Part shown: one piece after another, positions 74 through 24,272 of the stretch
Numbering within the stretch: the stretch's first letter is position 1
How the letters are laid out: every line of letters begins with the position of its first letter
From: a virus
Virus record (IMG/VR): IMGVR_UViG_3300029309_000333
Coordinates: 1-24,483 of that record
Length of the DNA stretch: 24,483 nucleotides
Reading direction: 5' to 3' (one strand)
Program-made: the position numbers and the translations under genes
Notes under the pieces: model-generated
Databases searched by the model: none
What the model saw: the letters and a program-made list of their open reading frames with translations, nothing else
Told to the model about the DNA's origin: nothing

Positions 74-121
74 ATTATAACTAACTTGGGATGTCATGTC
101 AAGATATATTTTTTTCATGGT
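74..121 (-). promoter_or_regulatory. Sigma70-type phage promoter P4
   Basis: On the minus strand, TTGACA (97-102) and TATAAT (74-79) are separated by exactly 17 bases. An A-rich upstream block (103-121) is a looser, one-base-longer version of the block found at three other promoters in this window. The predicted start point is near 67-68, giving a leader of about 15 nt in which the GGAGG ribosome binding site lies almost at the 5' end. It fills the gap between the tail hub stop codon and the next gene. Confidence 0.85.
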
Positions 122-10349: not shown

Positions 10350-10359
10350 TTTTGCATCG

Positions 10360-10812
10360 CTATTCTTGAAGAACTTTTCCAGACGACTTAATAGCTGGCT
10401 TCTTTCCTTTCGTACGAAAGTTATCTAAATCAAAGACTACCTCATTGAGCCATGTATCAAATTCAGTCGATGAGTTTACTAGTGTTTCTGCATTATCCAT
10501 ACTGTAAGGTAATTCTTCTTTTGGATCTTTTCCTTCAATATCCACAAGAATTAACGTTTCTAAATGCTCTAATGTTAAGCCTCTCCAGTTTTTTACTACT
10601 GCTTTTGCAAACTCAACTACAAATTTTTCTTCATCTAAATCTTCCATCGCTTGACGTGTTTTTCTATCAAACTTTGTAGTAGTGCATTTCTTTCTTAGTC
10701 CTTGTATTTCTTTTCTGGAAAGATTTGCTACTTCTACGCTAAAGCCGTCTAATCCTGGAAAGTCAATCCAGGCAGCTTTACTATCTACCATTAACTTTTT
10801 TAGTTCCATCAT
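10360..10812 (-). CDS. Tail assembly chaperone, first component (G-like)
   Basis: A 150-residue soluble protein between the tail tube genes and the tape measure. It opens with a short beta-like region (WIDFPGLDGFSVEVANLSRKE, about residues 15-35) and continues as charged helix; this length and pattern match the first tail assembly chaperone of siphoviruses. Two adjacent ATG codons exist (10812 and 10809). AAGGAA lies upstream, and the second ATG has the better spacing, so the protein may start at MELKK. The C-terminus is Lys-rich (FRTKGKKPAIKSSGKVLQE). The function is inferred from position and size; no catalytic motif is visible. Confidence 0.75.
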   Translation of the reverse strand: MMELKKLMVDSKAAWIDFPGLDGFSVEVANLSRKEIQGLRKKCTTTKFDRKTRQAMEDLDEEKFVVEFAKAVVKNWRGLTLEHLETLILVDIEGKDPKEELPYSMDNAETLVNSSTEFDTWLNEVVFDLDNFRTKGKKPAIKSSGKVLQE

Positions 10813-10818
10813 TGTTCC

Positions 10819-11724: not shown

Positions 11725-11739
11725 GTTGTCCCGATAGTA

Positions 11740-11764
11740 AAAGGGACTCGAAAAGAGTCCCTTT
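11740..11764 (-). terminator. Strong hairpin after the major tail gene, in the P3 leader
   Basis: A perfect 10-bp inverted repeat, AAAGGGACTC / GAGTCCCTTT, with a 5-nt loop, followed on the minus strand by a short T run. It lies downstream of the major tail gene, so it can act as an intrinsic terminator for that transcript. It also lies about 10 nt after the predicted start point of promoter P3, so every P3 transcript carries it near its 5' end. It could then attenuate P3 or protect the 5' end. The T run is short, so termination may be partial. Confidence 0.7.
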
Positions 11765-11780
11765 AGCTTTTCTATTTCAT

Positions 11781-11827
11781 AGTATAGTTGAAATAACCAA
11801 AAATGTCAAGAACTATTTTTTACAGGT
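11781..11827 (-). promoter_or_regulatory. Sigma70-type phage promoter P3
   Basis: On the minus strand, TTGACA (11804-11809) and TATACT (11781-11786) are separated by 17 bases. An 18-bp block ACCTGTAAAAAATAGTTC (11810-11827) sits immediately upstream, in the same register as at P1 and P2. It lies between the major tail stop codon and the second tail-tube-like gene. The predicted leader is about 50 nt and contains the hairpin at 11740-11764. Confidence 0.88.
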
Positions 11828-11832
11828 ATAGT

Positions 11833-12972
11833 TTAATATGCAGCACCTGTATAAGTAATTGTTGCATCATCTGCACCATCAACAGTTGAGGGCAATGCAT
11901 GGAAATTAGTTTCAAGTGATATAATATCGTCAATAGAATGTGTAGGTATTTCTAAGTGACAAGTAGGTAAGTTAATTGCTACTTTTGGTGCACTTGCTCC
12001 ACCTATTGAAAATGTTAAATCAAAATCATTTGTAATTGTACCATCTGATTCAATTAAGTCTTCAAATAAATCAGCACTTCCAGCACTATGATTTCCTAAA
12101 TAACAAGTGAAAGCTCCGCTTATACTTCTTGTTCCTGTTACGTGAGCAATTGGCTTATTGATTACTCCAAGAGTTTCAGGAGTTAAATAAGTAATGTTAT
12201 TATTAAACTCAATGCTACCGCCAGTCAGTGTTAAAGTATAAGCACTTACAATACTTCCTGTAGCTGTAGCAGAGACAGCTAGAGTAGTAAGTCTATTTCT
12301 AATAAAGTTATTTGTCGAATCAATTGCTTCCGCGATAGTTACAGTTGGTAATGATGCATGATCAGTTATAAGTTTACCAAATCCTGACCAGTTAATTGTT
12401 GCAATTCCATCAATATCAAAGTCAATTGCTGCACTGTTTACTGCACATGCTTCAATTTTGTAAACTTGATGAGTGCTAGCATTATAAGCGCCTTGACCCA
12501 TTACAAAATAAATATTGATTTCTTTTAATGCTGCTACATTTGAGTCACTGAAGTCAAATGCAAGTGCTGAGTTACTTTGAGCAATTCCTGAAGTTGCGTT
12601 CCATGAGCTATTGGAACTGTCTCCTCCCGCAGTAAATGTTCCTGCACTTATTAAAGAAGCCCACATTATTTCTTCAACTGCGTGCATTTGTACTGATGTT
12701 CCATCCCAACCTAATGATGAATCTACTACTGAAATAAAAGGTCTCATGTAAGTTGAAAAACTCCACTCAGCAGGAGCATAAGAATCATTGAACATTCTTC
12801 GACCCCTTCGGCTAGCATTGCCTGATGCTGCTGCCATTTCATTCAAAGTAATCTCAGAGGTATTTGTACCTTGCGAAAAAGAAAACCCATCTAGTACTGG
12901 AATTTCCCAAACAGCTGAGTCTGCTTCCACAAGCACTCTGGTATCTCTGCTAAAAAATAAATTATTCGCCAT
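11833..12972 (-). CDS. Major tail (tube) protein
   Basis: A 379-residue beta-rich protein lying just after the tail terminator gene, the expected place for the tube subunit. The opening (residues 1-45) with WEIPVLDGFSFSQGTNTSEI is typical of phage tail-tube proteins. The C-terminal part has RSISGAFTCYLG and later CHLEIPTHSIDDIISLE, strand patterns I associate with this family. It has a good ribosome binding site (AGGAG seven bases before the ATG), a 61-nt gap upstream and a hairpin downstream, which fits a product needed in hundreds of copies. It is longer than many tube subunits (150-250 residues); the central ~150 residues may form a surface domain. Confidence 0.85.
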   Translation of the reverse strand: MANNLFFSRDTRVLVEADSAVWEIPVLDGFSFSQGTNTSEITLNEMAAASGNASRRGRRMFNDSYAPAEWSFSTYMRPFISVVDSSLGWDGTSVQMHAVEEIMWASLISAGTFTAGGDSSNSSWNATSGIAQSNSALAFDFSDSNVAALKEINIYFVMGQGAYNASTHQVYKIEACAVNSAAIDFDIDGIATINWSGFGKLITDHASLPTVTIAEAIDSTNNFIRNRLTTLAVSATATGSIVSAYTLTLTGGSIEFNNNITYLTPETLGVINKPIAHVTGTRSISGAFTCYLGNHSAGSADLFEDLIESDGTITNDFDLTFSIGGASAPKVAINLPTCHLEIPTHSIDDIISLETNFHALPSTVDGADDATITYTGAAY

Positions 12973-13033
12973 AGTTTTCTCCTATGTATCTTGAAAAGGC
13001 TAGGACGTGAACGTTTGTTCTTGCCTGCATTTT

Positions 13034-13492
13034 CTAGTATCGAACCTCAATGAGCATTTCTCCCACTCCCAAAGGTTCAAGTACACCCTCATCAGTGCTT
13101 ATACTGGTGATTGTGATTTGTTGTGTATTTTGATCTGTATTATTACGATCTTTATACGTTAGTCTTGAATTTTCTTCAATTACTGTTTCGACATCTTCAA
13201 GTAACTCATCAAGTGCTTGAACAGTATCTTCATCTTGAACATAACATCTTACTGTAATTGAAAAGAATCTATCTTTGTATCCTCCTCCTTGGTACTCTCT
13301 AGTTTCAGCTCCTGCATTTAAATGTATTGCAGGAAACTCTTCTACTTCGTCCCAAAATTTTAAACGTGGGGATACGTTTTCATTTACGTTTGTTAAAAAA
13401 TGTCCAGTGCCATCTATGTCTTTTAGTTTATTTACTAGCGCTTCTACAATTCCTAAACGTCTTGTTGTATAAGTTCTTGCGCTTGTAGACAT
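13034..13492 (-). CDS. Tail terminator-like protein
   Basis: A 152-residue alpha/beta protein with an N-terminal helix (RRLGIVEALVNKLKDI), a strand-rich middle (FPAIHLNAGAETREYQGGGY, then FFSITVRCYV), a helix (ALDELLEDVETVIEE) and C-terminal strands ending GEMLIEVRY. This order matches tail terminator proteins of the lambda gpU type, which cap the tail tube and join it to the head. It lies between the neck protein and the major tail protein, as expected. Its start overlaps the upstream stop as TAATG. Assignment is by pattern and position. Confidence 0.75.
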   Translation of the reverse strand: MSTSARTYTTRRLGIVEALVNKLKDIDGTGHFLTNVNENVSPRLKFWDEVEEFPAIHLNAGAETREYQGGGYKDRFFSITVRCYVQDEDTVQALDELLEDVETVIEENSRLTYKDRNNTDQNTQQITITSISTDEGVLEPLGVGEMLIEVRY

Positions 13493-14865
13493 TAAATTCT
13501 CCTAGTAAATAATCTTCCCAGTGCCATTTCGGCCGCTATTTCTCGAATAGATCTATCGATCAATTTTCGAGGATCTCTTTCTGGAGTTGCCCACCGTTCA
13601 TCTCCTCGTCCCATCTCATATACTTGATAAGGATTTTTTCTATAAGTATATCCAACACTTGGATACCCTTTTGGTGTTTGTACTACTTCTGTTACTTTTA
13701 CACTATCTGCAAATCGTCCTGTTCTATTTTGTAGAGCAGGTTGTTGCATATTATCTCTTATTACTCTTGGCAGCTTTTTGTTAATCATAGCTATCATTCT
13801 CAAAAGAGTAGATGCTGGAGAATCTGCTATTTGTTTTTGTTTTGCAGCTTTTCTAACTTTAACTTTAGTATTAAGTTTAGTATTTTTTCCTCGCACTTTT
13901 GCGGCAACTGATAATACTGAACTTGATTTTACATTTTTAATTTTAGCTTTTTTAGAAACTATTGCACCAGGAACTTTTCTAAAAGGATCCATTATTTCAT
14001 TTCTTGCTTTTTTAATCTTTCTAGTTTTTAAAGAATCAGATCCTTGTAAATTTTCTAAGTTTCCTTTAGATTCTAAATAAGCATTTATTTTCTTTCTTAA
14101 ATCTTTACTTCTTAATCCTGATTTTTGTCCCTCGCTTCTATTTTTAGAGGCTGATTCTATTCTTATGATAATCATATCTTGATTATCAACTTTTTTTACC
14201 TCTAAATCTATGTCACACTCTGTTTTTAAAAATAAAATTAAGTCTGTATTATTTATTGTAGATTCAGCTTCAATCTTTGAATCTATTGCTGCCATTATTT
14301 GTTGAGTTTTTTGATCTAAAAATCTTTCAAAAACTCCTGCATCTTTTTGGTGTCCAGCATCAAAAAAGTGCATAATTGATTTTTTCTCTGAACCATCTTT
14401 ATTTGAAATTTTTTCTCTTCCTGTACTTCCAATAAAGTTTTGTAATTCAGTAAACATTTCATTCATTGAGTTTCTATATGCAAAAGTTACTCTTCTAAAT
14501 GCTGTAAAAGGAAGAAACTCTAATTTTTTCTCTCTTAGATAAGCTGGAATTGGTACATCTGTATTATTATCAAAAATTAAAGTAGATTTTCCTCCAGGAC
14601 TTTTTAGTCCTGGCTGTATCTGTTTTAGTTGTTTTATTAATTTATTACCTGCAGCATTTACTATTTTTCTTATTTCTGCTTTTTCACTCTCATCAAAATT
14701 CATTCCATGTCCTTTTGATAATTGTTTTATTGTTTCTGTAAATAAAGTTCTCTTACTAAATACAAAAGTTTGTGGTTGTCTATCTAACTCTTTTCTAAAT
14801 TCATCATAAGTTTCTAGCTCACGTTTAAATTTAGTTAAAAATGTAGCTAAATGTTTTTCTGCCAT
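13492..14865 (-). CDS. Long neck / tail-completion protein with HK97 gp10-like C-terminus
   Basis: A 457-residue basic protein. The last ~100 residues (LPRVIRDNMQQPALQNRTGR, then VGYTYRKNPYQVYEMGRGDE) resemble the small tail-completion/neck proteins of the HK97 gp10 type, normally about 110-150 residues, with the usual N-R-T-G-R-x-x-x-S core. The first ~350 residues are an extension I cannot assign: charged helices, a Lys-rich central segment (about 270-345) and a strand pair near 215-235. It lies between the head-tail connector and the tail terminator, which supports a neck role. Both ends use TAATG overlaps. The extension could be a head-tail adaptor, a decoration domain or an ejected part; I cannot say which. 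Confidence 0.7.
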   Translation of the reverse strand: MAEKHLATFLTKFKRELETYDEFRKELDRQPQTFVFSKRTLFTETIKQLSKGHGMNFDESEKAEIRKIVNAAGNKLIKQLKQIQPGLKSPGGKSTLIFDNNTDVPIPAYLREKKLEFLPFTAFRRVTFAYRNSMNEMFTELQNFIGSTGREKISNKDGSEKKSIMHFFDAGHQKDAGVFERFLDQKTQQIMAAIDSKIEAESTINNTDLILFLKTECDIDLEVKKVDNQDMIIIRIESASKNRSEGQKSGLRSKDLRKKINAYLESKGNLENLQGSDSLKTRKIKKARNEIMDPFRKVPGAIVSKKAKIKNVKSSSVLSVAAKVRGKNTKLNTKVKVRKAAKQKQIADSPASTLLRMIAMINKKLPRVIRDNMQQPALQNRTGRFADSVKVTEVVQTPKGYPSVGYTYRKNPYQVYEMGRGDERWATPERDPRKLIDRSIREIAAEMALGRLFTRRI

Positions 14866-15455
14866 TAGTAAGTTTTATATAAATCCAGAACACGTTTTAT
14901 GTGATCTGGAAAGCCTACATTATCTCTTTGACTAGTAGTAGCACTATTTTGAATACTTGCTCCTGCAATTGTTTGTCTCACTTTGTATTCGTCTTTGTGA
15001 TAGTATCGAATCAAATCAATAACTGCTAACTCTAAATCTGCAGGAGTTGATGCATATCCTGCTTTGTATACAACTTGTACTGCTCCAACTCCGATTGGAA
15101 AATTTTTATGCTTTCCAGTGTCATTAGTTCTTATGATAGTATCAGTATTACTATCTAAAAAGAACTCAAATGCACCCGTAGTAAGTGTAATATAAGATTC
15201 TGAATAACTTGTTCTTTCTTGCACACTTACAATTGAAACAATTGGACTTTCTGTAAGCTGTACAAAAGGTGTTTCAAAATCAATATTAAATGTTTCTGTT
15301 TTATTACTAGAATAAAAATCAATTATAGAATTTCCACAATAAGTTTTTACTAATTGACTTACAGAACTTACAAGAGAAGTAAGTCTTACATCTTCTTTTG
15401 TAGAAGTTATATTTTCTGCATCTTTGTAAGTTTCTAAAGTTATTAAATCAGCCAT
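14865..15455 (-). CDS. Head-tail connector (gp6-like)
   Basis: A 196-residue protein directly after the capsid gene. It begins ADLITLETYKDAENITSTKED followed by a helix with VSSVSQLVKTYCG, the pattern of HK97 gp6 / SPP1 gp15-type connector proteins that bind below the portal. A beta-rich middle is followed by a helix containing LELAVIDLIRYYHKDEYKV, also usual in this family. The family is usually 90-200 residues, so the length is in range. It follows the strong terminator at 15473-15504, so its expression should depend on read-through. The stop overlaps the next start as TAATG. No good Shine-Dalgarno sequence is seen before its ATG. Confidence 0.78.
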   Translation of the reverse strand: MADLITLETYKDAENITSTKEDVRLTSLVSSVSQLVKTYCGNSIIDFYSSNKTETFNIDFETPFVQLTESPIVSIVSVQERTSYSESYITLTTGAFEFFLDSNTDTIIRTNDTGKHKNFPIGVGAVQVVYKAGYASTPADLELAVIDLIRYYHKDEYKVRQTIAGASIQNSATTSQRDNVGFPDHIKRVLDLYKTY

Positions 15456-15472
15456 ATTATAAGTCCATTAGT

Positions 15473-15504
15473 AAAAACTTGTGGGGAGGTTTCCCTCCCC
15501 CAAG
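15473..15504 (-). terminator. Intrinsic terminator after the capsid gene
   Basis: On the minus strand, CTTG GGGGAGG GAAA CCTCCCC A CAAG forms a GC-rich stem with one bulged A and a GAAA loop, followed at once by TTTTT. It is the clearest rho-independent terminator in the window and sits in the 66-nt gap between the capsid and head-tail connector genes. No promoter is visible in that gap, so connector, neck, tail terminator and major tail genes should be made from read-through transcripts. Confidence 0.9.
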
Positions 15505-15521
15505 TAGTATATAAGTACAGA

Positions 15522-16967
15522 TTATGCGTACTCGATTCGTACTGCAGTTGCTTTACCTGAAGCGTTAGCTGCAAGTTGCTCAAATCCTAAGGACTGAGAA
15601 GCTACTATAGCAGTTCTCTGGTTTGCAATCTCTAAATCACTCTGTATACTTACACCACGTAGACGTGGAATTACAAAGTTAGAGGTATTTACAAGTAGTG
15701 CTGCAGTTGTAGTCTCTGCTCCTGATGCTCCCAACTTATTAGCTAAGAACTCACTCGCAAGAACTGGGACTCCATAAACATATCCGAGAGTACCTGTTAC
15801 ACGTGGGTTTACACCTCGTGTAGCAGCTGCGTCGTTTCCGACCTCTGCGATGTCTGCGAATCCTGCATCATCCATCAATCTGTAATACTGATCATATGGT
15901 AAGATCAATGCAAGTTGTGCTGGATCCATTCCATATTTACCCATTTCTTGTCTCAAGCTCAAGATATTTGCTGCAGATACTACATCTGACTCATCAGTTG
16001 CAGATGCATCTTTATCAGCTACTGTTGTTGAATCGGCTGCAAGGAATGAACCTGCACCGTCTGTTCCAGCGCCACCAATTAGACCTGCAATTGAAGAGTT
16101 ACCAACTAAAATAGCAGAGTCAATTGCTCTTGCATGAGCAGTTGCTAATTGTTGAGTAAGCATTGGTAATAAAGATACTATTACTTGCTCATCAGTATCA
16201 GCACCAATAAATGTTCCTGCGATTACTCGCTTTGCATTTAATACTCTCTCTTGAACTGTGTAGTTATTATCTGAGTTGTCTGTCATCATATTTTGTGAGG
16301 CAGTAATACCAGTTGAAGCAAATGTTGCTAAACCTGGCTCTGGTGCAAATGGTAGTACAGTTGCTCCAGATTGTACAGGAATCTCACGGAAAAGTTGAGC
16401 TACTTTATACTGAGCTGATACTTCTGTTTCAAACGCAGTGGTCATAGTAACATCGAGACCTACAGTTGAACCTGCCAATGAAGCAAAATCAACAGTCTTT
16501 TGTTGAAGTTGCTTAGCATAGTCTGTCTCCCATCCTTTTCCAGTTACAGTACCAAGAATCTTCGCTTGAAGAAGTTCTTTACCATGATCTTCAATTCGAC
16601 CGCTTCTGTTGTCAAAAGACTTCTTGCTATTTCTCATAGCTTCGATTTCAGAAGCTTTCTCTTTCAAGTCTTTTTCGTACTTGTCAGTGATTGCTTTGAT
16701 ATCTAGTTCTTTTTGAGCTTCAAAATCTTTTTGAACATCTGCTAGTAACTTTTCAGTACCAGACTCAATTCCAGACTTAACTTTAGACTGGATTTTTTCG
16801 GCTTCAATTGCCTTAGCAGTTTGAGCTTCTTCAGCTGCTTTTGCTTCAGCTTCTTCTGCCGCTTTTTGCTCGGCCGCTTTCATTGCAATTTTAGCAGCAG
16901 TTTCCTCTGCTACTTTTTTAGCAAAAGCTTCCAAGTCGACTTCGGGAGTTTTTGTTTCTTCCGACAT
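15522..16967 (-). CDS. Predicted nested scaffold-capsid product from an internal start
   Basis: In the same frame as the protease-capsid fusion, ATG at 16965-16967 (MSEETKTPEVDL) has AAAGGAGA six bases upstream, better than the site of the full-length gene. It would give a 481-residue protein with no protease domain: scaffold-like coiled coil plus capsid. This resembles nested in-frame scaffold genes such as lambda C/Nu3, but here the nested product includes the capsid itself. It would supply the many capsid copies while keeping protease copies low. The start is seen in sequence; its use is inference. Confidence 0.65.
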   Translation of the reverse strand: MSEETKTPEVDLEAFAKKVAEETAAKIAMKAAEQKAAEEAEAKAAEEAQTAKAIEAEKIQSKVKSGIESGTEKLLADVQKDFEAQKELDIKAITDKYEKDLKEKASEIEAMRNSKKSFDNRSGRIEDHGKELLQAKILGTVTGKGWETDYAKQLQQKTVDFASLAGSTVGLDVTMTTAFETEVSAQYKVAQLFREIPVQSGATVLPFAPEPGLATFASTGITASQNMMTDNSDNNYTVQERVLNAKRVIAGTFIGADTDEQVIVSLLPMLTQQLATAHARAIDSAILVGNSSIAGLIGGAGTDGAGSFLAADSTTVADKDASATDESDVVSAANILSLRQEMGKYGMDPAQLALILPYDQYYRLMDDAGFADIAEVGNDAAATRGVNPRVTGTLGYVYGVPVLASEFLANKLGASGAETTTAALLVNTSNFVIPRLRGVSIQSDLEIANQRTAIVASQSLGFEQLAANASGKATAVRIEYA

Positions 16968-17498
16968 ATCTATCTCCTTTGAAGAGGATTGCTCCTCGCT
17001 TTTAAAAGTTTTCTTGAAGTTTTCGTATTCCGTTTCAGAATCGAATGACTTCGCTAGAGAAAAAGTAGCTGCTTGATTGCAAGGTACCGATACAACTGAT
17101 ACTTCAAACAACTCAGCGTCCTTTATCATTAATCCGTCGGTTTCTTTCATGTAGTCAGCGTCCTTGACCTTGAAACCGACAGAAAACGCTCCAAGGACAC
17201 CGTCTTTGATTAATTCTGCACATTCAGCATGTTTACTAATTTTTGCTTCCATGTGCAAGCCATCATTCGTAGGAGTAACTTTTGTTGCTCGACCGATCGG
17301 CTTATTATAATCGTGGTTAAATAAAATAATAGGATTCTTTTCAAAATTACCTAAACCACCTTTTGTCCAAGCATCAGCAGTTATACTATCACCTGCTCTA
17401 TCAAAAGCATTTGTGCTAGCCATTCCTCGAACCATTACTGATCCATCTTCTTGTGCTTCTGACTTAAACGTAGATGTTAAATTGAATAATTTATTCAT
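15522..17498 (-). CDS. Prohead protease-scaffold-major capsid fusion
   Basis: One 658-residue frame joins three parts. Residues 1-150 match the HK97 prohead protease (peptidase U35): NHD with His62, GAFSVGF with Ser106, and a VSVVSVP strand (133-139). Residues ~150-300 are Ala/Glu/Lys-rich predicted coiled coil, like the HK97 delta/scaffold region. Residues ~310-658 are an HK97-fold major capsid protein, ending with an RGVSIQSDLEIANQRTAIVA stretch. Separate genes are the rule, so the fusion is notable. I start it at the third of three consecutive ATGs (17498), which has AGAAGG eight bases upstream; starts at 17504 or 17501 are possible. It overlaps the portal end by 8 nt. A strong internal ribosome binding site before Met178 suggests a second, shorter product. 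Confidence 0.9.
   Translation of the reverse strand: MNKLFNLTSTFKSEAQEDGSVMVRGMASTNAFDRAGDSITADAWTKGGLGNFEKNPIILFNHDYNKPIGRATKVTPTNDGLHMEAKISKHAECAELIKDGVLGAFSVGFKVKDADYMKETDGLMIKDAELFEVSVVSVPCNQAATFSLAKSFDSETEYENFKKTFKSEEQSSSKEIDMSEETKTPEVDLEAFAKKVAEETAAKIAMKAAEQKAAEEAEAKAAEEAQTAKAIEAEKIQSKVKSGIESGTEKLLADVQKDFEAQKELDIKAITDKYEKDLKEKASEIEAMRNSKKSFDNRSGRIEDHGKELLQAKILGTVTGKGWETDYAKQLQQKTVDFASLAGSTVGLDVTMTTAFETEVSAQYKVAQLFREIPVQSGATVLPFAPEPGLATFASTGITASQNMMTDNSDNNYTVQERVLNAKRVIAGTFIGADTDEQVIVSLLPMLTQQLATAHARAIDSAILVGNSSIAGLIGGAGTDGAGSFLAADSTTVADKDASATDESDVVSAANILSLRQEMGKYGMDPAQLALILPYDQYYRLMDDAGFADIAEVGNDAAATRGVNPRVTGTLGYVYGVPVLASEFLANKLGASGAETTTAALLVNTSNFVIPRLRGVSIQSDLEIANQRTAIVASQSLGFEQLAANASGKATAVRIEYA
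16965..16980 (-). promoter_or_regulatory. Internal ribosome binding site of the capsid precursor
   Basis: AAAGGAGATAGAT followed by ATG on the minus strand: near-consensus Shine-Dalgarno with 6-nt spacing, inside the protease-capsid frame. A small hairpin with a GCAA loop (16984-16997) lies just upstream. Confidence 0.7.
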
Positions 17499-18675
17499 CA
17501 TCATTACCTTCTTCTGGGGGTCGCCCACCTTGACTAGGATCTACGGCACTGCCTGCTATATTTTGTGGAATTCGTATATCATCTTGCCCTTCCATCAAAT
17601 CATACCCTAATCTATCTCTTGCTTCATTTATTGTAATAATGCCTCCGTTTACTAATGCAGTATAATAACCTGCTGCATCTCGTAGTTCGGGTTGTAGTGC
17701 TGCAATATCTGATACATCCTCTTTTATTAAAAATCCAAAGTACTTACATAAAGCATGATTAACTTTTCGTACTATTGGTATAATTGTCTCTAAATAATAA
17801 AGACGCATATTTGGACGTATATTTGCATTATTACCAGAGTCCATCAATATTGGCGGAACTCCTAGAGCTTTCAAGATAATTTTTTCATTTCGATCTATAG
17901 CATCTTGAAAATCTAATTCTTTAAAGTTTGTATTTGTGTAAGAATCTATTTCGATTCCTCCATCTAGTATAAGAGGTCTTCGACCTCCAGAGTCTGGTCT
18001 ATAACGAAGTGACCATGACTGTATCATTCTTTCTTTTATTTTTTCTGACAAAGTATTCGGGCTTTTTAACACTAGTCCTGGAACTGCTCCATTTTTAAAA
18101 AAGTTGTCTTGAAACTGTCTCATATTTGTCATAAGTTGCATTGTTCTCAATGCTGGTTTTAGTCGAGACACTCCTCTATAAATTGAATAGAAAGAGTTTT
18201 CTTTTATATGTATCATTTCATTTGGAGAATAATCTATATCATTATATCTATACTTTTCTATAAAAGTTTCAGAGTCTCCATGTATTGTTACTTTATCTGC
18301 TGGAACATGATATAAGTGTGCTCCGTCAAAGTAAATAAATATATTTCCATCAAGTAAATAATCTGTAATTAAGTTTCTTTTAAATGCACTAATATCTTGA
18401 TAAGGGTTTGGCTCATCATTAAGTAACAGTTCAACTCTAGCTCTTTTAACCCCTTTAACAACTCCAGGAGTTCGCATACTACGTAAAACTGTTGCTGGTA
18501 TTTCTGCAACATCGTCAACAATCATATTAACGCCTCTGTTGACTATTTCTAAATTTTCATAGTAAAACTCATAACTGCGAGTACTTTCTCTAGAAGATTC
18601 TTGAGATGTTCCAATATATTGCTGTATTGGATTTAGTTTTTCTCGTCGTCCAAATATTCTATCATACCAAGCCAT
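17491..18675 (-). CDS. Portal protein, HK97 family
   Basis: A 394-residue portal protein, forming the dodecameric DNA channel at one capsid vertex. The order of recognisable parts is typical of the HK97-type family: an N-terminal helical region with NRGVNMIVDDVAEIPATV, a strand pair near NEPNPYQDISAFKR and YLLDGNIFIYFDG, a KNGAVPGLVLKSP stretch, then GIEIDSYTNTNFKELDFQDA with the ALGVPPILMD clip/stem signature. The C-terminus (from about residue 370) is a disordered Pro/Gly/acidic tail, as usual. It overlaps the HNH gene by 14 nt upstream and the protease-capsid gene by 8 nt downstream. Confidence 0.95.
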   Translation of the reverse strand: MAWYDRIFGRREKLNPIQQYIGTSQESSRESTRSYEFYYENLEIVNRGVNMIVDDVAEIPATVLRSMRTPGVVKGVKRARVELLLNDEPNPYQDISAFKRNLITDYLLDGNIFIYFDGAHLYHVPADKVTIHGDSETFIEKYRYNDIDYSPNEMIHIKENSFYSIYRGVSRLKPALRTMQLMTNMRQFQDNFFKNGAVPGLVLKSPNTLSEKIKERMIQSWSLRYRPDSGGRRPLILDGGIEIDSYTNTNFKELDFQDAIDRNEKIILKALGVPPILMDSGNNANIRPNMRLYYLETIIPIVRKVNHALCKYFGFLIKEDVSDIAALQPELRDAAGYYTALVNGGIITINEARDRLGYDLMEGQDDIRIPQNIAGSAVDPSQGGRPPEEGNDDE

Positions 18676-19027
18676 GTTTTTCTCTCTGGATTTGCACCCA
18701 TCTCATTTGTTTCTTTACGGTTCCAAGCCCTGGCTCTTTACCATAGATGGAGTGAAGCTGTTTGTGATGCATGTTACATAAAGTTACTGCATGTACATAT
18801 AACTCATCTTCATGCTCTTCAATAAAATCTTCTCTAAGTGCTTGTATATACTGTGGGTTCAGTTTGTTATCTTTCAACCATTTATTCAATAGTCCTGTTA
18901 AACTATAGAAGTGATGATAATCTAACTGTGTTTCTGATCCACAGATATAACATTTAGAGTCCTTTTTATATCGTGATTTTGCCTTGTCTCGTACATACTT
19001 TACTATGTCCCTTTTTAGCTTTGGCAT
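18662..19027 (-). CDS. HNH endonuclease of the packaging module
   Basis: A 121-residue protein with a CYICG knuckle (Cys26, Cys29), an LDYHHFYS stretch (His38-His39) and CNMHHKQLH (Cys84, His87-88, His92). This is a zinc-ribbon HNH core of the beta-beta-alpha metal type. HNH enzymes beside terminase and portal genes are known to work with terminase in cutting DNA during packaging (HK97 gp74 type), which is the likely role here. The N-terminus is very basic (PKLKRDIVKYVRDKAKSRYK), suited to DNA contact. It is the first gene after promoter P2, with AGGA before the ATG, and overlaps the portal start by 14 nt. A free-standing homing nuclease is the alternative, but the position argues for packaging. 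Confidence 0.88.
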   Translation of the reverse strand: MPKLKRDIVKYVRDKAKSRYKKDSKCYICGSETQLDYHHFYSLTGLLNKWLKDNKLNPQYIQALREDFIEEHEDELYVHAVTLCNMHHKQLHSIYGKEPGLGTVKKQMRWVQIQREKHGLV

Positions 19028-19054
19028 TTTTATTTCCTACATTTTCATTAAAGA

Positions 19055-19101
19055 AGTATATCTGTTTTGAGATAACTTGTCAATAACTATTTTTCTCAGG
19101 T
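19055..19101 (-). promoter_or_regulatory. Sigma70-type phage promoter P2
   Basis: On the minus strand, TTGACA (19078-19083) and TATACT (19055-19060) are 17 bases apart, with the block ACCTGAGAAAAATAGTTA (19084-19101) immediately upstream, in the same register as P1 and P3. It fills the gap between the terminase stop codon and the HNH gene. Predicted leader about 21 nt. It should drive HNH, portal and protease-capsid, up to the terminator at 15473-15504. Confidence 0.9.
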
Positions 19102-19105
19102 ATCA

Positions 19106-20410
19106 TCAGAAGGAGATTTGTGAAGTTTCAAACGAGTACAATGCATATCGAAGTGCATCTGCCATGTGAGATGCCATGTTGTGCTTTGGTCGTTCCTTCA
19201 TGAGATTGGGATTAGGGTCCCATTGATACGCGTCCAAACAGCTGAGGGACTCTGTGGCTTGTTGGTCAACGTAAAGTTTGTCGTTGTCAACCAAACTTGA
19301 GACATGTCCAATTCCGTCAAGTACAGACTTCTTTGCGTTAATGGTTGTAATATCGTAATTTTGCGCGAGATCGAACCGTGTTTGTTGAGCAGCTGAATCA
19401 ATATAAATGAAATCAATATCCCAGCGAGTAATGAGCTTCTGGATTTCGGTAGCATGCTGTTCCGTCGTCCGCTCCGCATTAAAATATTCGTCAAGTAGAT
19501 AGTATTTGTCCTCATCCCAGTCGTATGCGATTACGCACATCGCGGTCGGGTCTTTGTAACCGACATCTAGACCTGCAAAGACATCCATTTTTGTTGTGTC
19601 AAACTGAGACAGATCTTTGACATTTTCCTCGAAGTTAAACCTCCATATCTGACCTTCATAGGTATTGAAGTCTGCTTCGTACTCTTGTTTAAATTCTGCT
19701 TCTGACATAGACTTACGGGCTTCTGCTATATCAGTTTCTGACATACGAGGATTATCTACATAAGATGCTTTGATACTTGCCCACTCTGGAAACTCATCTG
19801 AGAATCCTCTGTAGAAAAACTCCGCAAACCAATTGTTGCGACCTCGTGGTGTAGATATAAATATTGCTTTTGAGTTATCTTTATCAAGCGTGGGACGTAG
19901 TGCTACATTAAAAGCATCTTTGCCGTCTGCAAGTGCCGCTTCGTCAAAGATGATAAGATCGTATGAACGACCCACACATGAATCTACTTGATTGATAGAG
20001 CCCATTCTAACTGTAGATCCATTTGACATTTCGATAACTTTATCTTTTGCGTTATCTTTTGTTACTTCTAGTTCAAACTGTTTTATAAGATTTCTTTGTA
20101 AATCAAAAGAAATCTGAGACAAAGCATAATTGGGTGACATTATTAAGATATTTGAGCCAGGTACTAAAGACACGAGCTGTCCAATAATATTGGCTATATA
20201 TGTTTTGCCTTGTCGTCTGGAGACTGCGGCAGAGACAAAACGGTATTTTGGATTATTTATCGCGTTGATAATTGCTATCTGCGAAGGTAACGGTGTGACT
20301 TTCAGTAAATTCAAATAAGAATTTACTGGTAGTTTTAAGAACTTTGTCTCAGATTGTAAATCGATTATTTCGTCGCAGAGAATATCTCTGCGACTTACTT
20401 CTACTGCCAT
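19106..20410 (-). CDS. terL: Terminase large subunit
   Basis: A 434-residue packaging motor ATPase/nuclease with all expected motifs. N-terminal ATPase: Walker A SRRQGKTY (64-71), Walker B LIIFDEA (152-158, Asp156-Glu157), coupling motif STPRG (186-190). C-terminal RuvC-like nuclease: acidic residues Asp282 (GLDVGYKDPTA), Asp338 (YIDSAAQQ) and Asp418 (HMADALRY). It is full length and looks active. It starts one base after the stop of the preceding 53-aa gene and ends just before promoter P2. The small subunit lies about 3.3 kb upstream rather than next door. Confidence 0.97.
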   Translation of the reverse strand: MAVEVSRRDILCDEIIDLQSETKFLKLPVNSYLNLLKVTPLPSQIAIINAINNPKYRFVSAAVSRRQGKTYIANIIGQLVSLVPGSNILIMSPNYALSQISFDLQRNLIKQFELEVTKDNAKDKVIEMSNGSTVRMGSINQVDSCVGRSYDLIIFDEAALADGKDAFNVALRPTLDKDNSKAIFISTPRGRNNWFAEFFYRGFSDEFPEWASIKASYVDNPRMSETDIAEARKSMSEAEFKQEYEADFNTYEGQIWRFNFEENVKDLSQFDTTKMDVFAGLDVGYKDPTAMCVIAYDWDEDKYYLLDEYFNAERTTEQHATEIQKLITRWDIDFIYIDSAAQQTRFDLAQNYDITTINAKKSVLDGIGHVSSLVDNDKLYVDQQATESLSCLDAYQWDPNPNLMKERPKHNMASHMADALRYALYSFETSQISF

Positions 20411-20411
20411 T

Positions 20412-20573
20412 TTATTTCTCTGTTTTTAAAAGTGTCCAGATTCCATAGCCTAGTCCTACCCAAGCTAATATTTTTGCTAATCCGCCAAAAAGTATAAATG
20501 CTCCACATACTCCGATTAACATTGCACCATCCCAAGAGGTGCGCTCTTTCATTAAGTTTTTTAAGTAGTTCAT
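20412..20573 (-). CDS. Small membrane protein, holin-like
   Basis: A 53-residue protein starting MNYLKNLMKERTSWDGAM. The N-terminal ~15 residues are charged, followed by a hydrophobic region of about 32 residues (17-49) that could be one long or two short membrane segments, ending in Lys/Glu. Its start overlaps the upstream stop as ATGA, and its stop is one base before the terminase start, so it is a real, coupled gene. The ERTSWDG opening followed by a Gly/Ala-rich membrane segment is familiar from small marine phage proteins. A holin or lysis-accessory role is possible but unproven. Confidence 0.85.
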   Translation of the reverse strand: MNYLKNLMKERTSWDGAMLIGVCGAFILFGGLAKILAWVGLGYGIWTLLKTEK

Positions 20574-21139
20574 GGTATTGCTTTCCTATTTTTGCCCCAT
20601 GCTACAAAGCCAAAGACGTACAATGCTGCCCATGCTAAGTAGTTAAGAACCTTGAAGCCATTGACTTCGATACAAATATCTCTGAATACTACATCTAACT
20701 CTTTTTGTGTCATTCTATCAGTGTGTTCGCCTGTTACCTTTTTAAGACAACCATATCGATAGCCATAATCATGTACAAGTCCTCCCATCAGTAGTACGCC
20801 TACTGGCGAAAGAAAAGTTGCAAGAAACTTTGGTACAGAAGCGCCATCAAATTGAAAGCCTGCTGGAATTACATATCCTTCACCCTTTAATGTATAGTGA
20901 AAATCTTCACACACTTTCCAATGACGAACACCGGTAATCCACATTAATATTGCTTTCCAAAAACCTTTTCCTTTTGTAGCAATAGGTATGGGTTGCATTT
21001 TTGGCATATCCATATAAGTAAAACCAACTCTCTTCTCTTCTTTTTTATCAAAAGAGTTTATAATAAATCCTACTAAAATAAGACAAATAAGTATTGTCCA
21101 CTGCCAAAAAGTCATTGCTAAATCAAGTAACATTTCCAT
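20570..21139 (-). CDS. DUF1353-like membrane protein
   Basis: A 189-residue protein with an N-terminal membrane anchor (about residues 11-30) and a likely C-terminal membrane segment (about 164-182). Between them are the two signatures I associate with DUF1353 phage proteins: FDGASVP (97-103) and LVHDYGY (121-127). The His-Asp pair suggests metal or substrate binding, but the biochemical role of the family is not known to me. It sits among the EF-hand and 53-aa membrane proteins, so a role at the cell envelope, such as lysis, is a reasonable guess. MEMLLD begins at 21139, right after the stop of the EF-hand gene. Confidence 0.82.
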   Translation of the reverse strand: MEMLLDLAMTFWQWTILICLILVGFIINSFDKKEEKRVGFTYMDMPKMQPIPIATKGKGFWKAILMWITGVRHWKVCEDFHYTLKGEGYVIPAGFQFDGASVPKFLATFLSPVGVLLMGGLVHDYGYRYGCLKKVTGEHTDRMTQKELDVVFRDICIEVNGFKVLNYLAWAALYVFGFVAWGKNRKAIP

Positions 21140-21457
21140 TTATTTTTTCCCCGCATATGCATTGGCTCCAAAGAAGGCGGAAACCAAAGCCGCGATAGCT
21201 ACAAAGTATGTGGGAGCAATATCACCAATTATTTTTGCGGCGCTATCTAAACCGAATAATGATGTGCAAAAAATACCGAAAGGATAAAACAACATTCCCC
21301 ATAAGGAGAACCATGTCATCTTTCTCATTGCATCCCGTTGTGCGTCTTGATCTTCTAGTTCTTTTCTTCGGAACTCAAGATACATTTCTTGTTCGGTGTC
21401 AGAAACTTTTCCGTCACCATTAGTATCAGCTGGATGAAATTTCTTTTCTTCTACCAT
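21140..21457 (-). CDS. EF-hand membrane protein
   Basis: A 105-residue protein. Residues 11-22, DTNGDGKVSDTE, form a complete EF-hand loop (Asp1, Asn3, Asp5, Ser9, Glu12), so it should bind calcium. A charged helix (23-46) leads to two membrane segments (about 48-70 and 80-100) and a short Lys tail. I recognise this layout from small marine phage proteins. An upstream in-frame TTG at 21475 would add six residues, but ATG at 21457 is the better start, overlapping the previous gene by 7 nt. The role is unknown; a calcium-sensing holin-like or envelope protein is one possibility. Confidence 0.82.
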   Translation of the reverse strand: MVEEKKFHPADTNGDGKVSDTEQEMYLEFRRKELEDQDAQRDAMRKMTWFSLWGMLFYPFGIFCTSLFGLDSAAKIIGDIAPTYFVAIAALVSAFFGANAYAGKK

Positions 21458-21747
21458 TTTACTAAGTTTGCCCAATATGCCGCAGACATTTTGCCTTTAG
21501 CTATATTCTTGCGATGTCTTGCTTTGAAAGATGCTCGCTTTCTTTTCATTGCTTGACTTTCACCAGGTTTAGGTTTACCAGCAGTTTTTGCACCTTGCTG
21601 ACCGAATCGTATTGTTTTTACTTTGTGTCCGACTTTAGCCACAACTATGTGTGACTTAGTTTTATGACCAGGAGTACGCTTTGGCTTGTTGTAGCCTTTT
21701 ACTCCTGCTCTTTTTAGTAAACTTTTACCTCTTCTTGCGTGTGGCAC
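21451..21747 (-). CDS. Very basic small protein with C-terminal SFKARH...YWANLVKW motif
   Basis: A 98-residue, Lys/Arg-rich protein with a single acidic residue. The conserved-looking part is the C-terminal ~55 residues: RFGQQG, KPGESQAMKRKRASFKARHR and SAAYWANLVKW. The pattern SF-[KR]-ARH ... YW ... W is one I have met in small proteins of phages and large DNA viruses, without a known function. The start is GTG at 21747 (MPHARRGKS). It overlaps the upstream gene by 23 nt and the EF-hand gene by 7 nt. Likely nucleic-acid contact or a virion-internal role is inferred only from charge. Confidence 0.8.
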   Translation of the reverse strand: MPHARRGKSLLKRAGVKGYNKPKRTPGHKTKSHIVVAKVGHKVKTIRFGQQGAKTAGKPKPGESQAMKRKRASFKARHRKNIAKGKMSAAYWANLVKW

Positions 21748-21946
21748 GTTTTCGTTTCCCTAGTCTTATTCTTTCTTGAATTAGACTCCGTGGGACTGTT
21801 TTTCCCTCTTTGTATAGTTTTGAAATCTTTTTCAAAACTGCTGCAAGTCTTGTACGTTTAGAACCTGATGTACCTCCTAAGTATTTTTTAGGTAACTTAC
21901 TTTTTCGATCTTTTGGAACGCTTTTTCGTTTTCTTCTTTTTACCAT
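21725..21946 (-). CDS. Very basic small protein with KYLGG motif
   Basis: A 73-residue protein starting MVKRRKRKSVPKDRKSK. It carries KYLGGTSGSKR followed by helical, Lys-rich sequence (KKISKLYKEGKTVPRSLIQ) and a basic tail. The frame is open further upstream, but those 29 residues would lie wholly over the preceding gene and do not resemble the rest, so I take ATG at 21946. It overlaps the upstream gene by 50 nt. The K-Y-L-x-G-x-x-G-x-x-R pattern recurs in phage and large-virus small proteins of unknown role. Confidence 0.75.
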   Translation of the reverse strand: MVKRRKRKSVPKDRKSKLPKKYLGGTSGSKRTRLAAVLKKISKLYKEGKTVPRSLIQERIRLGKRKRATRKKR

Positions 21947-22055
21947 AACCAGATGCATATATAGCACGGCCTTGCAGTTCTGCTTCAGCCTTGCTCTTGT
22001 AAATCTTTCCAGATTTACCCCATCGATATCCACCCTTTACTTTTCTAACGGGCAC
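21897..22055 (-). CDS. Very basic small protein with GGYRWGKSGK motif
   Basis: A 52-residue protein, (M)PVRKVKGGYRWGKSGKIY, then KSKAEAELQGRAIYASGY and a Lys/Arg tail. The GGY-R-WG-x-x-GK core followed by AxxQGRAIYASGY is a well-recurring pattern of small phage proteins whose function I do not know. I choose the GTG at 22055 because the recurrent form of this family starts MPVRKV; an ATG at 22094 would add 13 residues and lengthen the overlap with the upstream gene from 11 to 50 nt. No strong ribosome binding site is seen, so translation is probably coupled. Confidence 0.75.
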   Translation of the reverse strand: MPVRKVKGGYRWGKSGKIYKSKAEAELQGRAIYASGYGKKKKTKKRSKRSKK

Positions 22056-22338
22056 GTTTCTTTCTTTTAATATCGTTATCTTGTGAGTGTCCACCTCTCA
22101 TAAATGAATTTACTCTTCCAAAAGCCCACTGCGACATTGATACTCCAGGACGAGAACCAGAACTTAAATATGCTCCCTGTCCTCGTCTATAAACTCTTGC
22201 AAGTTGTCCATAAGTATATCTTTTACTCTTCTTTGCTTTTGCTCGCAAAGTTTTCTTTACTGACTCACTTAAAGGTCTTGCTCTTCTTTTTGGTGCTGCT
22301 TTCCTTTTTGTTGCTCTTTTCTTTCTACGAACTGCCAC
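22045..22338 (-). CDS. Basic small protein, DUF5824-like motif
   Basis: A 97-residue protein. The first 35 residues are a Lys/Arg/Ala-rich tail. The core at about 36-80 reads SKRYTYGQLARVYRRGQGAY and SRPGVSMSQWAFGRVNSFMR: a helix-turn pattern (YGQLARVYRRG, then G-x-RPG, then QWAxxRVNSF) that I associate, from memory, with DUF5824, a family shared by phages and large DNA viruses with no known function. The start is GTG at 22338 with AGAGG eight bases upstream and a TAGTG overlap with the previous stop. Confidence 0.8.
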   Translation of the reverse strand: MAVRRKKRATKRKAAPKRRARPLSESVKKTLRAKAKKSKRYTYGQLARVYRRGQGAYLSSGSRPGVSMSQWAFGRVNSFMRGGHSQDNDIKRKKRAR

Positions 22339-22637
22339 TATTTTTTCCTCTTTCGAGCATTTCTCAAGCTCGCTTTGCCTTGACGAAAAATACCTGCAAC
22401 TGTTTTCTTTCCCATCACTTTGGCTCTTTGCTCACCTACAGTAAGTATTTGAATTTTTCTTGCATAAGATCTGCGTACTCGTTTTACTTTTGCAACTGTA
22501 GCTCTCGCATCTTTTGCTGTAGCAAACTTTATACGAATAGTGTCTTTTGGATTTTCATCCGTATATAGTCGTCGTCCAGAACCTTTTGGTTTTTTGCCAG
22601 TACCAACTCTAGGATCTTTTCTTTTTCTTTTGCGCAT
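22338..22637 (-). CDS. Very basic small protein with GSGRRLYTDENP motif
   Basis: A 99-residue protein starting MRKRKRKDPRVGTGKKPKGS. The central motif SGRRLYTDENPKDTIRIKF is followed by helices rich in Lys/Arg/Ala (DARATVAKVKRVRRSYARK) and a C-terminal basic tail. I have seen the RRLYTDENPxDT motif in similar marine phage gene clusters, without known function. The frame is open for 21 residues further upstream, but that part overlaps the previous gene completely; ATG at 22637 fits better (29-nt overlap). No clear Shine-Dalgarno is present. Confidence 0.78.
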   Translation of the reverse strand: MRKRKRKDPRVGTGKKPKGSGRRLYTDENPKDTIRIKFATAKDARATVAKVKRVRRSYARKIQILTVGEQRAKVMGKKTVAGIFRQGKASLRNARKRKK

Positions 22638-22809
22638 TTTTATAAGCTGTATGGGAGCTGCCAGGCATAAATCTTTTTGCAGTACCTCTACCATGGGCAT
22701 GAATGCCTTTTAAACCTAATTTTCGTGCTGCTTTTCTTGCTGGTCCCGGACTTTTATATACATGTTTATTTCTTAAAAATGCTGCATGTTTTCTTTTATT
22801 TAATGACAT
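22609..22809 (-). CDS. Very basic small protein without acidic residues
   Basis: A 66-residue protein with 20 Lys/Arg, 5 His and no Asp or Glu. The sequence contains AFLRNKHVYKSPGPARKAAR, then LGLKGIHAHGRG and RFMPGSSHTAY. The motif LGL-x-GxHxHG ... [FY]MPG-x-[ST]H is a recurring one in phage small proteins of unknown function. Its start forms a TAATG overlap with the previous stop. Such an extreme charge suggests binding to nucleic acid or to an acidic partner; this is inference. Confidence 0.8.
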   Translation of the reverse strand: MSLNKRKHAAFLRNKHVYKSPGPARKAARKLGLKGIHAHGRGTAKRFMPGSSHTAYKNAQKKKKRS

Positions 22810-23036
22810 TATTCATAAGATCCTTGTAGGTCGTCCAAAGTTACAGTAGCCTCTGCTTTTTTCATTTTTTCTGCTATGGACTTTTCCTCTTCGATTGTAT
22901 CGTTTTCATCGTATTCTATGGTGGGCATATTTAATTTTTTCATATATGCCAAAGCATCTGTTTTTTTAACAAACTTATATAAACGTTCATTTTTATCTCG
23001 AAAACACCAGCGACCTCTTTTTTTATAAAGTTTCAT
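22809..23036 (-). CDS. Hypothetical protein, basic N-half and acidic C-half
   Basis: A 75-residue protein I do not recognise. Residues 1-35 are basic and aromatic (KLYKKRGRWCFRDKNERLYK), with a strand-turn-strand look and a W-x-F pair. Residues 40-75 are acidic (TIEYDENDTIEEEKS, then VTLDDLQGSYE). It is the only strongly two-sided charge distribution in this cluster of otherwise basic proteins. The start is clear: TAGGAG six bases before the ATG; the TAG of that ribosome binding site is also the stop of the Cys-rich peptide upstream, so translation of the two is probably coupled. Confidence 0.82.
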   Translation of the reverse strand: MKLYKKRGRWCFRDKNERLYKFVKKTDALAYMKKLNMPTIEYDENDTIEEEKSIAEKMKKAEATVTLDDLQGSYE

Positions 23037-23045
23037 ATATGTCTC

Positions 23046-23087
23046 CTAACAACAAGTGCAACTACAACATTTACAACATCTACACAT
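23046..23087 (-). CDS. 13-residue cysteine-rich micro-ORF
   Basis: ATG at 23085-23087 opens a 13-codon frame, MCRCCKCCSCTCC, followed by TAG. Eight of 13 residues are Cys. AGAGG lies eight bases upstream of the ATG. The ATG overlaps the end of the preceding gene (its TAG is inside ATGTGTAG), and the peptide's stop forms the TAGGAG ribosome binding site of the next gene. This placement makes real translation plausible. It is too short for homology; it could be a metal-binding peptide or only a coupling leader. Confidence 0.5.
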   Translation of the reverse strand: MCRCCKCCSCTCC

Positions 23088-23457
23088 TCTTTTTTCCTCT
23101 AAGTTTCATAAGTTTGGCTCGATCCTGTTGAATAATTATAGGATATGGAGCTTGATTATTTTTGCCTTTAGTATATGTAGGATAAGACCACAAATATTCA
23201 CATTTTTCTTGGCAGTCATTTCGATCTGCTACAATGTCGTCCATCTCGTCTAGAGTTAGTCCTTCTACTACGTAAACTAATGCATCTAACGGTTGTTCAT
23301 TCCAGTTTGCTTCTGTGAGCTTCAAAAAGTCTTCATTATAGGGTAGTATTTTTATTTTACCATTAATGTAACTTTCATAACTCCAAGGACAAACATCTTT
23401 AATACTTTTGAAGTATTGAAGCCAAGTACTATCCTCGACTTCTCTTCTTCTTGCCAT
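23080..23457 (-). CDS. Hypothetical protein (DSTWLQYFKSIKDVCPWS family)
   Basis: A 125-residue protein starting MARRREVEDSTWLQYFKSIK. The W-[LI]-x-YFxSIKxVCPWS opening, followed by a proline/aromatic loop (NGKIKILPYN) and a helix with LVYVVEGLTLDEMDDIV, recurs in my memory of marine phage packaging regions, with no known role. A C-terminal stretch with CQEKCEYLWSYP has two cysteines four apart. A TTG at 23499 would add 14 basic residues; ATG at 23457 is preferred because the family normally opens near here. It overlaps the upstream gene by 29 nt. It is less basic than its neighbours and looks like a folded domain. Confidence 0.78.
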   Translation of the reverse strand: MARRREVEDSTWLQYFKSIKDVCPWSYESYINGKIKILPYNEDFLKLTEANWNEQPLDALVYVVEGLTLDEMDDIVADRNDCQEKCEYLWSYPTYTKGKNNQAPYPIIIQQDRAKLMKLRGKKNV

Positions 23458-23554
23458 TCTTTTTCTTTTTCTTCTTGCCCATGCCTTTTTGCTTTGCAAG
23501 AATAGCTCTTTGTAACGCTGGGGGTAGTTTCTTTTGCTTTGCTGTTAATGCCAT
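23429..23554 (-). CDS. 41-residue poly-lysine protein
   Basis: A 41-residue protein, MALTAKQKKLPPALQRAILA followed by KQKGMG, six consecutive Lys, NG and a basic end. A short amphipathic helix (PPALQRAILAKQKG) precedes the Lys tail. TAGGAG lies six bases before the ATG, so it is very likely translated although short. The P-x-x-LQ-[RK]-AILxKKxG opening is familiar from tiny marine phage proteins. The A/G-only stretch coding for the Lys run could cause polymerase or ribosome slippage. Confidence 0.8.
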   Translation of the reverse strand: MALTAKQKKLPPALQRAILAKQKGMGKKKKKKNGKKKRSRG

Positions 23555-23563
23555 TTAATTCTC

Positions 23564-23770
23564 CTACATCTTGGTTAATAGTGTCACTATTACACCAGCT
23601 AGGAACAGAGTCATTGTTCCACCGATTGCTAACATCCTACTTTCTATTCGACGAAGAGCTTCTTCTACATCTGATAGACGTTGAAAACAAGTCTTCCATC
23701 TCTCTTCACACATAACTTCATGTGCTGCAAAATCTTTTTCCAGATCGTGTACTTTTTCAGTCTGTTCCAT
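23564..23770 (-). CDS. XhlA-like coiled-coil membrane protein
   Basis: A 68-residue protein. Residues 3-45 are a charged helix with heptad spacing (LEKDFAAHEVMCEERW, then QRLSDVEEALRRIESR), and residues 47-66 are a membrane segment (IGGTMTLFLAGVIVTLLT), ending in Lys-Met. This layout matches haemolysin XhlA-type proteins, phage membrane proteins that act with holins in lysis. Its ATG overlaps the terminase small subunit end by 14 nt. Lysis involvement is inference from family and topology. Confidence 0.82.
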   Translation of the reverse strand: MEQTEKVHDLEKDFAAHEVMCEERWKTCFQRLSDVEEALRRIESRMLAIGGTMTLFLAGVIVTLLTKM

Positions 23771-24218
23771 TTAGTAGTTTCTCCATAAGCTTTCCATAAT
23801 TACCTTGACCAAATGGAACACCTTCATTAATCTGTACATTGGTTTGGTTTTTAATGTTGCTGCTTTCTGCTTTTGCTAAATCGGCTTGTGCCTTGATTTC
23901 ATCCATGCGCATCTTATGCGCCATCTGTAGTAGGTCTGCTAAGTCTTTTGACGAATACACACCTGTTTCCTGCGCTTCTTCTAGTTTAGAAGCAATCATT
24001 TCATCTAAAACGGTTCCAATGTTATTCTTGTTGCGATAACCCATATCTAAGTAAACTGTGTCAATATATTTCTTTACTTCACGTTTATTTAGTATATCCA
24101 CTACTTTGTTTTCTGCAACCTGAAGATGATCACATACTCCGCGAATATTTCCGAACTGTAGATAACTATTCGCTACTTCTAGTCCCTCAGGTGAAATTGT
24201 AGTTAGTTCTTTTGCCAT
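23757..24218 (-). CDS. terS: Terminase small subunit
   Basis: A 153-residue protein. Residues 9-45 (SPEGLEVANSYLQFGNIRGV, then HLQVAENKVVDILNKREVKK) look like a winged/helix-turn-helix DNA-recognition domain, followed by long helices (about 70-125) for ring assembly and a short C-terminal part (FGQGNYGKLMEKLL) that could bind the large subunit. It would bind the packaging start site (cos or pac) and load the large subunit. Its ATG has no Shine-Dalgarno: promoter P1 ends only 7 nt upstream, so the mRNA should be leaderless or almost so. The large subunit lies about 3.3 kb downstream. Confidence 0.8.
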   Translation of the reverse strand: MAKELTTISPEGLEVANSYLQFGNIRGVCDHLQVAENKVVDILNKREVKKYIDTVYLDMGYRNKNNIGTVLDEMIASKLEEAQETGVYSSKDLADLLQMAHKMRMDEIKAQADLAKAESSNIKNQTNVQINEGVPFGQGNYGKLMEKLLNGTD

Positions 24219-24225
24219 GATTCAA

Positions 24226-24272
24226 ATTATACTCATTTAGGGCTAAATTGTCAAGAACAATTTTTCTGAGGT
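24226..24272 (-). promoter_or_regulatory. Sigma70-type phage promoter P1 (consensus)
   Basis: On the minus strand, perfect TTGACA (24249-24254) and TATAAT (24226-24231) are 17 bases apart. The block ACCTCAGAAAAATTGTTC (24255-24272) lies immediately upstream, in the same register as P2 and P3. The +1 position falls on or next to the ATG of the terminase small subunit. It should drive the small-gene cluster down to terL. Confidence 0.92.

Follow-up and report, generated by a model that had tools for sequence, protein, structure and literature searches.

The closest described systems to the promoters considered here are those of coliphage T5 (PJ5, PG25, P11, P13a/b and P15a-c), together with those of BF23, My1 and PR1. 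In T5, the host sigma70 polymerase serves all promoter classes, PJ5 and PG25 are late in vivo, and ATATT marks the discriminator of the early promoters (PMC7472727). The same source describes as unexplained the way in which T5-like phages pass from early to late expression although they depend on the host sigma70 polymerase at every stage (PMC7472727). The annotated T5 promoters carry A-tracts at -45..-41, 17-bp spacing and spacers such as agatgcccaaacttttg, taagccttaaaattctg and agtgccttaaaacttgg; PJ5, whose late activity is proven, has the sequence AAAAACCGTTATTGACA-N17-TATACT.

Here we analyze a window of 24,483 nt (the whole stretch of viral DNA studied), which covers the late structural genes of a marine siphovirus of the T5 type. 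Four gaps between its genes hold a promoter cassette with a conserved upstream block. Very probably, the host RNA polymerase reads each of these cassettes as a strong sigma70-type promoter of a T5-like phage that needs no activator.

Results

A T5-like late region with four cassettes

The window keeps the late gene order of T5 and BF23: terS, terL, nicking endonuclease, portal, protease-capsid, completion proteins, tail tube, baseplate tube, tape measure, distal tail and hub (Table 1). Its terL is ~50% identical to that of Demerecviridae such as My1 and of Vibrio phages. The nicking endonuclease gene occupies the equivalent place in BF23, where an annotated promoter also lies between terL and this gene, as the 19055 site does in the window. 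Several details of the region stand apart from the promoters. In T5, terS and terL are adjacent, unlike in the window, where several small, overlapping and very lysine- and arginine-rich ORFs lie between them (21451-22809). The prohead protease and major capsid protein, two separate genes in T5, are fused in one 668-aa ORF (15522-17528), directly followed by a GGGGAGG...CCTCCCC hairpin and T-run (15483-15500); T5 and BF23 likewise have annotated terminators after the capsid gene. The 1772-aa hub/fibre protein (124-5442) has a C-terminal DYRLKENV-type motif, which is typical of phage fibres that end in an intramolecular chaperone (peptidase S74).

Table 1. Features of the window, with coordinates on its numbering
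Feature	Position	Strand	Basis or detail
T5-like late region	124..24218	-	Gene order and homology
terS, small terminase subunit	23757..24218	-	PHROG 3802, E 2e-38
Nicking (HNH) endonuclease homologue of T5/BF23	18662..19027	-	42% to T5.153; first gene after 19055 promoter
Baseplate tube protein	10819..11724	-	PHROG 3889; downstream of 11781 promoter and hairpin
terS promoter cassette	24226..24272	-	Block 24255-24272, -35 24249-24254, -10 24226-24231
Cassette after terL	19055..19101	-	Block 19084-19101, -35 19078-19083, -10 19055-19060
Cassette between tail tube and baseplate tube genes	11781..11827	-	Block 11810-11827, -35 11804-11809, -10 11781-11786
GC-rich terminator-like hairpin and U-run	11740..11764	-	Just downstream of 11781 promoter; stem changes on both arms
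Fourth cassette, looser block one base longer	74..121	-	After hub/fibre gene (124-5442)

With zero mismatches, TTGACA-N17-TATA(A/C)T occurs four times in the window, always on the minus strand (24226, 19055, 11781 and 74), and a reversed-pattern control gave no match there. These are the same four sites that an earlier note on this DNA had described, with exactly 17 bp before TATAAT or TATACT, and they are its only zero-mismatch matches. Their hexamers are those of a sigma70-type promoter (TTGACA and TATAAT-like, 16-18 bp apart). The 18-bp block ACCTSWRAAAAATWGTTM followed by TTGACA matches exactly three sites and no others, even at three mismatches, and 100 shuffles of the window gave no match. 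The looser fourth copy, at 74-121, reads ACCATGAAAAAAATATATC and is one base longer, in agreement with the earlier note. Shuffles yield loose promoter matches as often as the window does, so what marks out the sites is the combination of perfect hexamers and block. The cassettes start ~2-7 bp after a stop codon, in keeping with the 2-8 bp reported before. The further statement that each cassette fills its gap holds best at 24226, where the ATG lies 7 nt downstream, and less well at 11781, where ~57 nt more, including a hairpin, remain before the next gene. The leader of the cassette at 74..121 contains a Shine-Dalgarno sequence.

Conservation among relatives

We compared the window with 80 terL relatives from IMG/VR (terL 81-100% identical). 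After terL, essentially all 80 have (T/A)ACC(T/A)...AAAAATA(G/A)T..TTGACA-N17-TATA(A/C)T, and at this site the spacer and downstream leader vary while the promoter elements are kept. The other three window sites recur at equivalent places in relatives; one of these (G002) has all four at homologous positions, the counterpart of the fourth lying at 2452. When six T5-like sequences were scanned for block plus hexamers, 58 sites emerged, against zero in dinucleotide shuffles. The recurring cassette of the earlier note is thereby supported. Non-coding DNA, only 6-15% of each sequence, holds 43 of the 58 sites, and 53 of the 58 are co-directional with the next ORF.

For a non-circular view of the block, we gathered every TTGACA-N17-TATA(A/C)T from terL-selected loci and fetched contigs, leaving the upstream sequence unconstrained. 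Among the resulting 63 nonredundant sites, 49 differ from AAAAAT at -46..-41 by no more than one of the six bases, A is nearly invariant at -44 to -42 and at -40, and C stands at -36 in 75%. The conserved bases around these hexamer-selected sites read AAAAA(T/A)A(G/A)TTC at -46 to -36.

The upstream block as a probable proximal UP subsite

The proximal subsite of an UP element lies at about -45 to -37 (PMC2613000). In the cassettes, the A-rich tract lies at about -46 to -38 (A-tract, -46..-42), matching this position. Because it sits there and adjoins a perfect -35 box, a proximal UP subsite is the most fitting interpretation of the A-tract, and its conservation around sites chosen by their hexamers alone bears out the suggestion in the earlier note that the block could be an UP element. 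An A/T-rich distal subsite (about -57 to -47) is absent, C or G being favoured at -53/-52, and we therefore rejected a full UP element with a distal subsite. The block also has features of its own: T at -41 and -38 deviates from the UP proximal consensus AAAAAARNR, its TAGTTC goes beyond the specificity that an UP element calls for, and CC at -53/-52 is unaccounted for by UP or sigma70 contacts. A literature search for UP elements together with phage T5 found no paper.

Early and late promoters

The block also precedes ligase, primase, helicase, D11 and regulator genes in relatives' contigs that carry replication genes. Since it is present at early genes too, the block is no staging signal; this rules out a late-specific role and leaves the staged expression that had been proposed for it unsupported. 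The classes differ elsewhere. ATA follows the -10 box at 68/112 early vs 3/55 late sites (p about 1e-12), or 26/57 vs 2/36 under stricter removal of similar sites, although the contigs behind the two sets are in part different ones and some of the sites had been gathered by pattern, so that such contrasts may include clade effects. Within two sequences that have both modules (G008 and G010), the discriminator is AT at 14/15 early vs 1/7 late sites (p 0.0006).

A second difference lies upstream. ACC or CCT occurs at -56..-50 in 36/55 late vs 22/112 early sites and is sharply positioned at -53/-52, T being nearly absent at -53; because a control stretch at -66..-60 also differs by class (19/55 late vs 13/112 early), part of this effect is composition. 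Within G008 and G010 the contrast in CC, 6/7 late vs 5/15 early sites, is weak and non-significant (p 0.06).

The terS start and the tube-junction hairpin

Among 35 distinct relatives, the distance from the end of the -10 box of the terS promoter to the ATG is 7 nt in 28 and 6 nt in six; in the window it is 7 nt (24218-24231). A transcript with an ordinary start, some 7 nt beyond the -10 box, would have the AUG at its first base or close beside it, so the terS mRNA is predicted to be leaderless, and terS is probably translated from such an mRNA. Conservation of the N-terminus (MAKELTTISPEGL) argues against a later terS start.

At the tail tube / baseplate tube junction, a GC-rich hairpin with a U-run follows the -10 box of the 11781 promoter at a distance of about 18 nt. 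Its RNA fold (-16.9 kcal/mol, z -3.6) is far better than those of shuffles. The arms covary, since four stem variants among relatives each stay paired (GGGACTC/GAGTCCC, GGGGCTC/GAGCCCC, GGGGTGA/TCACCCC and GGGGTCT/AGACCCC). Of 550 sites scanned, just 24 are followed by a hairpin of this sort, nearly all of them at this junction. The hairpin may end tube transcripts and attenuate the 11781 promoter, or it may shield the 5' end.

Cassettes in bacterial contigs

The core and A-tract also occur in at least 117 bacterial contigs, mostly of Clostridia, and 8 of the 117 carry T5-type genes. T5-type genes accompany the cassette in L247, L248, L265, L281, L286, L235 and L227, from MAGs titled Parcubacteria, Euryarchaeota, Aureispira and others. 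The eight are probably mis-binned phage contigs; as their MAGs belong to unrelated phyla, assigning a host from the bacterial cassette contigs is impossible. Separately, Bacillus phage vB_BcoS-136 (W08) has an unrelated promoter cassette of its own across the genome: 58 near-perfect sigma-type promoters that share another conserved style (ATCTGTTGACAAAAGAT... with the spacer AAAAAATAATGATATAAT).

Discussion

A switch for the host polymerase would be the simplest reading of the cassettes, with sequence and the analogy to T5 pointing to this function. The alpha C-terminal domain would bind the A-tract as a proximal UP subsite, TTC before TTGACA would extend the -35 contact, and the AT-rich spacer with its A/T step would favour melting. 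The 24226 promoter would head the packaging genes, the 19055 promoter the nicking endonuclease, portal and capsid genes, the 11781 promoter the baseplate tube, tape measure and hub genes, and the promoter at 74 the post-tail genes. As no two of them head the same part of the late region, the dosed expression that the earlier note had envisaged is plausible. Local dose control may be added at two sites, through the probable leaderless mRNA of terS and at the tube junction, where the promoter would fire into the hairpin and many transcripts should end, or the 5' end be protected. Temporal class would be set by the discriminator that directly follows the -10 box, which is also the proposal for T5; the CC element at -53/-52, commoner in late promoters, may contribute.

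Alternatively, a late activator or repressor encoded by the phage could bind to the block or to its CC-containing distal part, and the A-tract would be just a part of that site. TAGTTC is more specific than an A-tract needs, and the depletion of T at -53 and the late-biased CC at -53/-52 also count in favour of such a site. A CC or GG upstream also tends to match a CC or GG in the spacer (odds ratio 9, p 0.001), although this link has no fixed distance and the statistic ignores relatedness. A paired ACCT/AGGT operator at -53 and -25 was rejected: orientation tends to agree, but distances scatter, and relatedness is uncontrolled. Activator-dependent promoters usually have a poor -35 box, whereas here the -35 is perfect at all four sites, unlike in promoters of the Mu Pm type, where an activator site replaces a poor -35. 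The AAAAATAGTTC core is equally present at early genes, and part of the CC effect is composition. We therefore consider this explanation improbable. Given the perfect -35 and the same architecture in T5, which uses it with the host sigma70 polymerase, an activator for the whole block is unneeded; of the phage-specific activator site raised in the earlier note, only the CC at -53/-52 is left as a candidate.

The cassettes might instead be ordinary strong host-type promoters whose block reflects a generic sigma70/UP preference, with nothing specific to T5-like phages. The many bacterial contigs with core and A-tract would fit this, as would one Ruminococcus genome with 92 perfect-hexamer sites, some A-tracts and many C at -36. 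Yet perfect TTGACA-N17-TATAAT amounts to 7 sites in 36 gammaproteobacterial genomes (which may not be the host's group), two of the seven within one contig of G021, while the phages carry many perfect sites with one specific 11-bp block and discriminators that differ between early and late genes; we hold this account to be very improbable. Chance matches without promoter function might be expected in DNA of 35% GC, in which loose promoter matches turn up at the rate seen in shuffles, but the conservation of the sites refutes this reading and leaves it a negligible probability: the site after terL is nearly completely conserved, the block finds no match in shuffles, and the cassettes lie in gaps in the fitting orientation.

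The host-read sigma70-type promoter remains our preferred reading. A bolder version, speculative and rather unlikely in our judgement, would have marine late promoters marked by the CC-containing element (-54..-51), which a phage-encoded regulator of the early-to-late switch would read together with the discriminator, and the dose of terS fixed by a clade-conserved leaderless mRNA. By tblastn, the fetched marine contigs gave no homologue of gpT5.026, the T5 polymerase-binding protein. With this large uncultured marine T5-like clade, hundreds of promoters can be aligned; they independently repeat the discriminator difference of T5, point to a second, late-biased element, and provide a matrix for annotating T5-like marine phages.

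Beyond T5, the cassettes resemble two other kinds of promoter. UP elements such as those of E. coli rrnB P1 and phage Mu Pm have the same A-tract directly upstream of the -35 box, in the proximal position; the window sites differ in having CC in place of the distal subsite and T at -41/-38. Lambda cI is transcribed from a promoter that gives a leaderless mRNA. In Deinococcus-Thermus, -10 boxes adjoin ORFs and mRNAs are leaderless (PMC12340547). The terS site is like these in placing the -10 box 6-7 nt before the start codon, but differs in serving a late packaging gene from a full -35/UP promoter and in being leaderless by prediction.

The nearest likeness is with T5, BF23, My1 and PR1. Common to these and the marine phages are a T5-like genome, the late gene order, sigma70-type hexamers, a 17-bp spacer, an A-tract around -45..-41, GCYTTAAANTTTTG-type spacers and an AT-rich discriminator at early genes. 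The T5 spacers are alike in style to the marine GATGCCCAAACTTTTTG (G008) and ATTCCTTAAAAATTTAG, and the ATATT-like discriminator found at early but not late T5 promoters has its counterpart in the difference between the marine classes. Unlike the nearest T5 promoters, which mostly have TTGCTT, the marine sites have a perfect TTGACA; their A-tract lies one base further out and is followed by a fixed TA(G/A)TTC before the -35 box, and late sites carry CC at -53/-52. Promoter places also differ, the marine ones lying after terL and after the tail tube; in BF23 a promoter is annotated behind terL. The exact marine block plus hexamer has no site in the T5 late region or in the part of PR1 searched; the T5 blocks are related but non-identical. 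Because T5 mostly has TTGCTT and lacks the exact block, the marine family is of the same kind as that of T5 but its own variant. The sequences thus give good support to the view that the cassettes are a marine variant of T5-type sigma70 promoters, ordinary in kind and carefully conserved.
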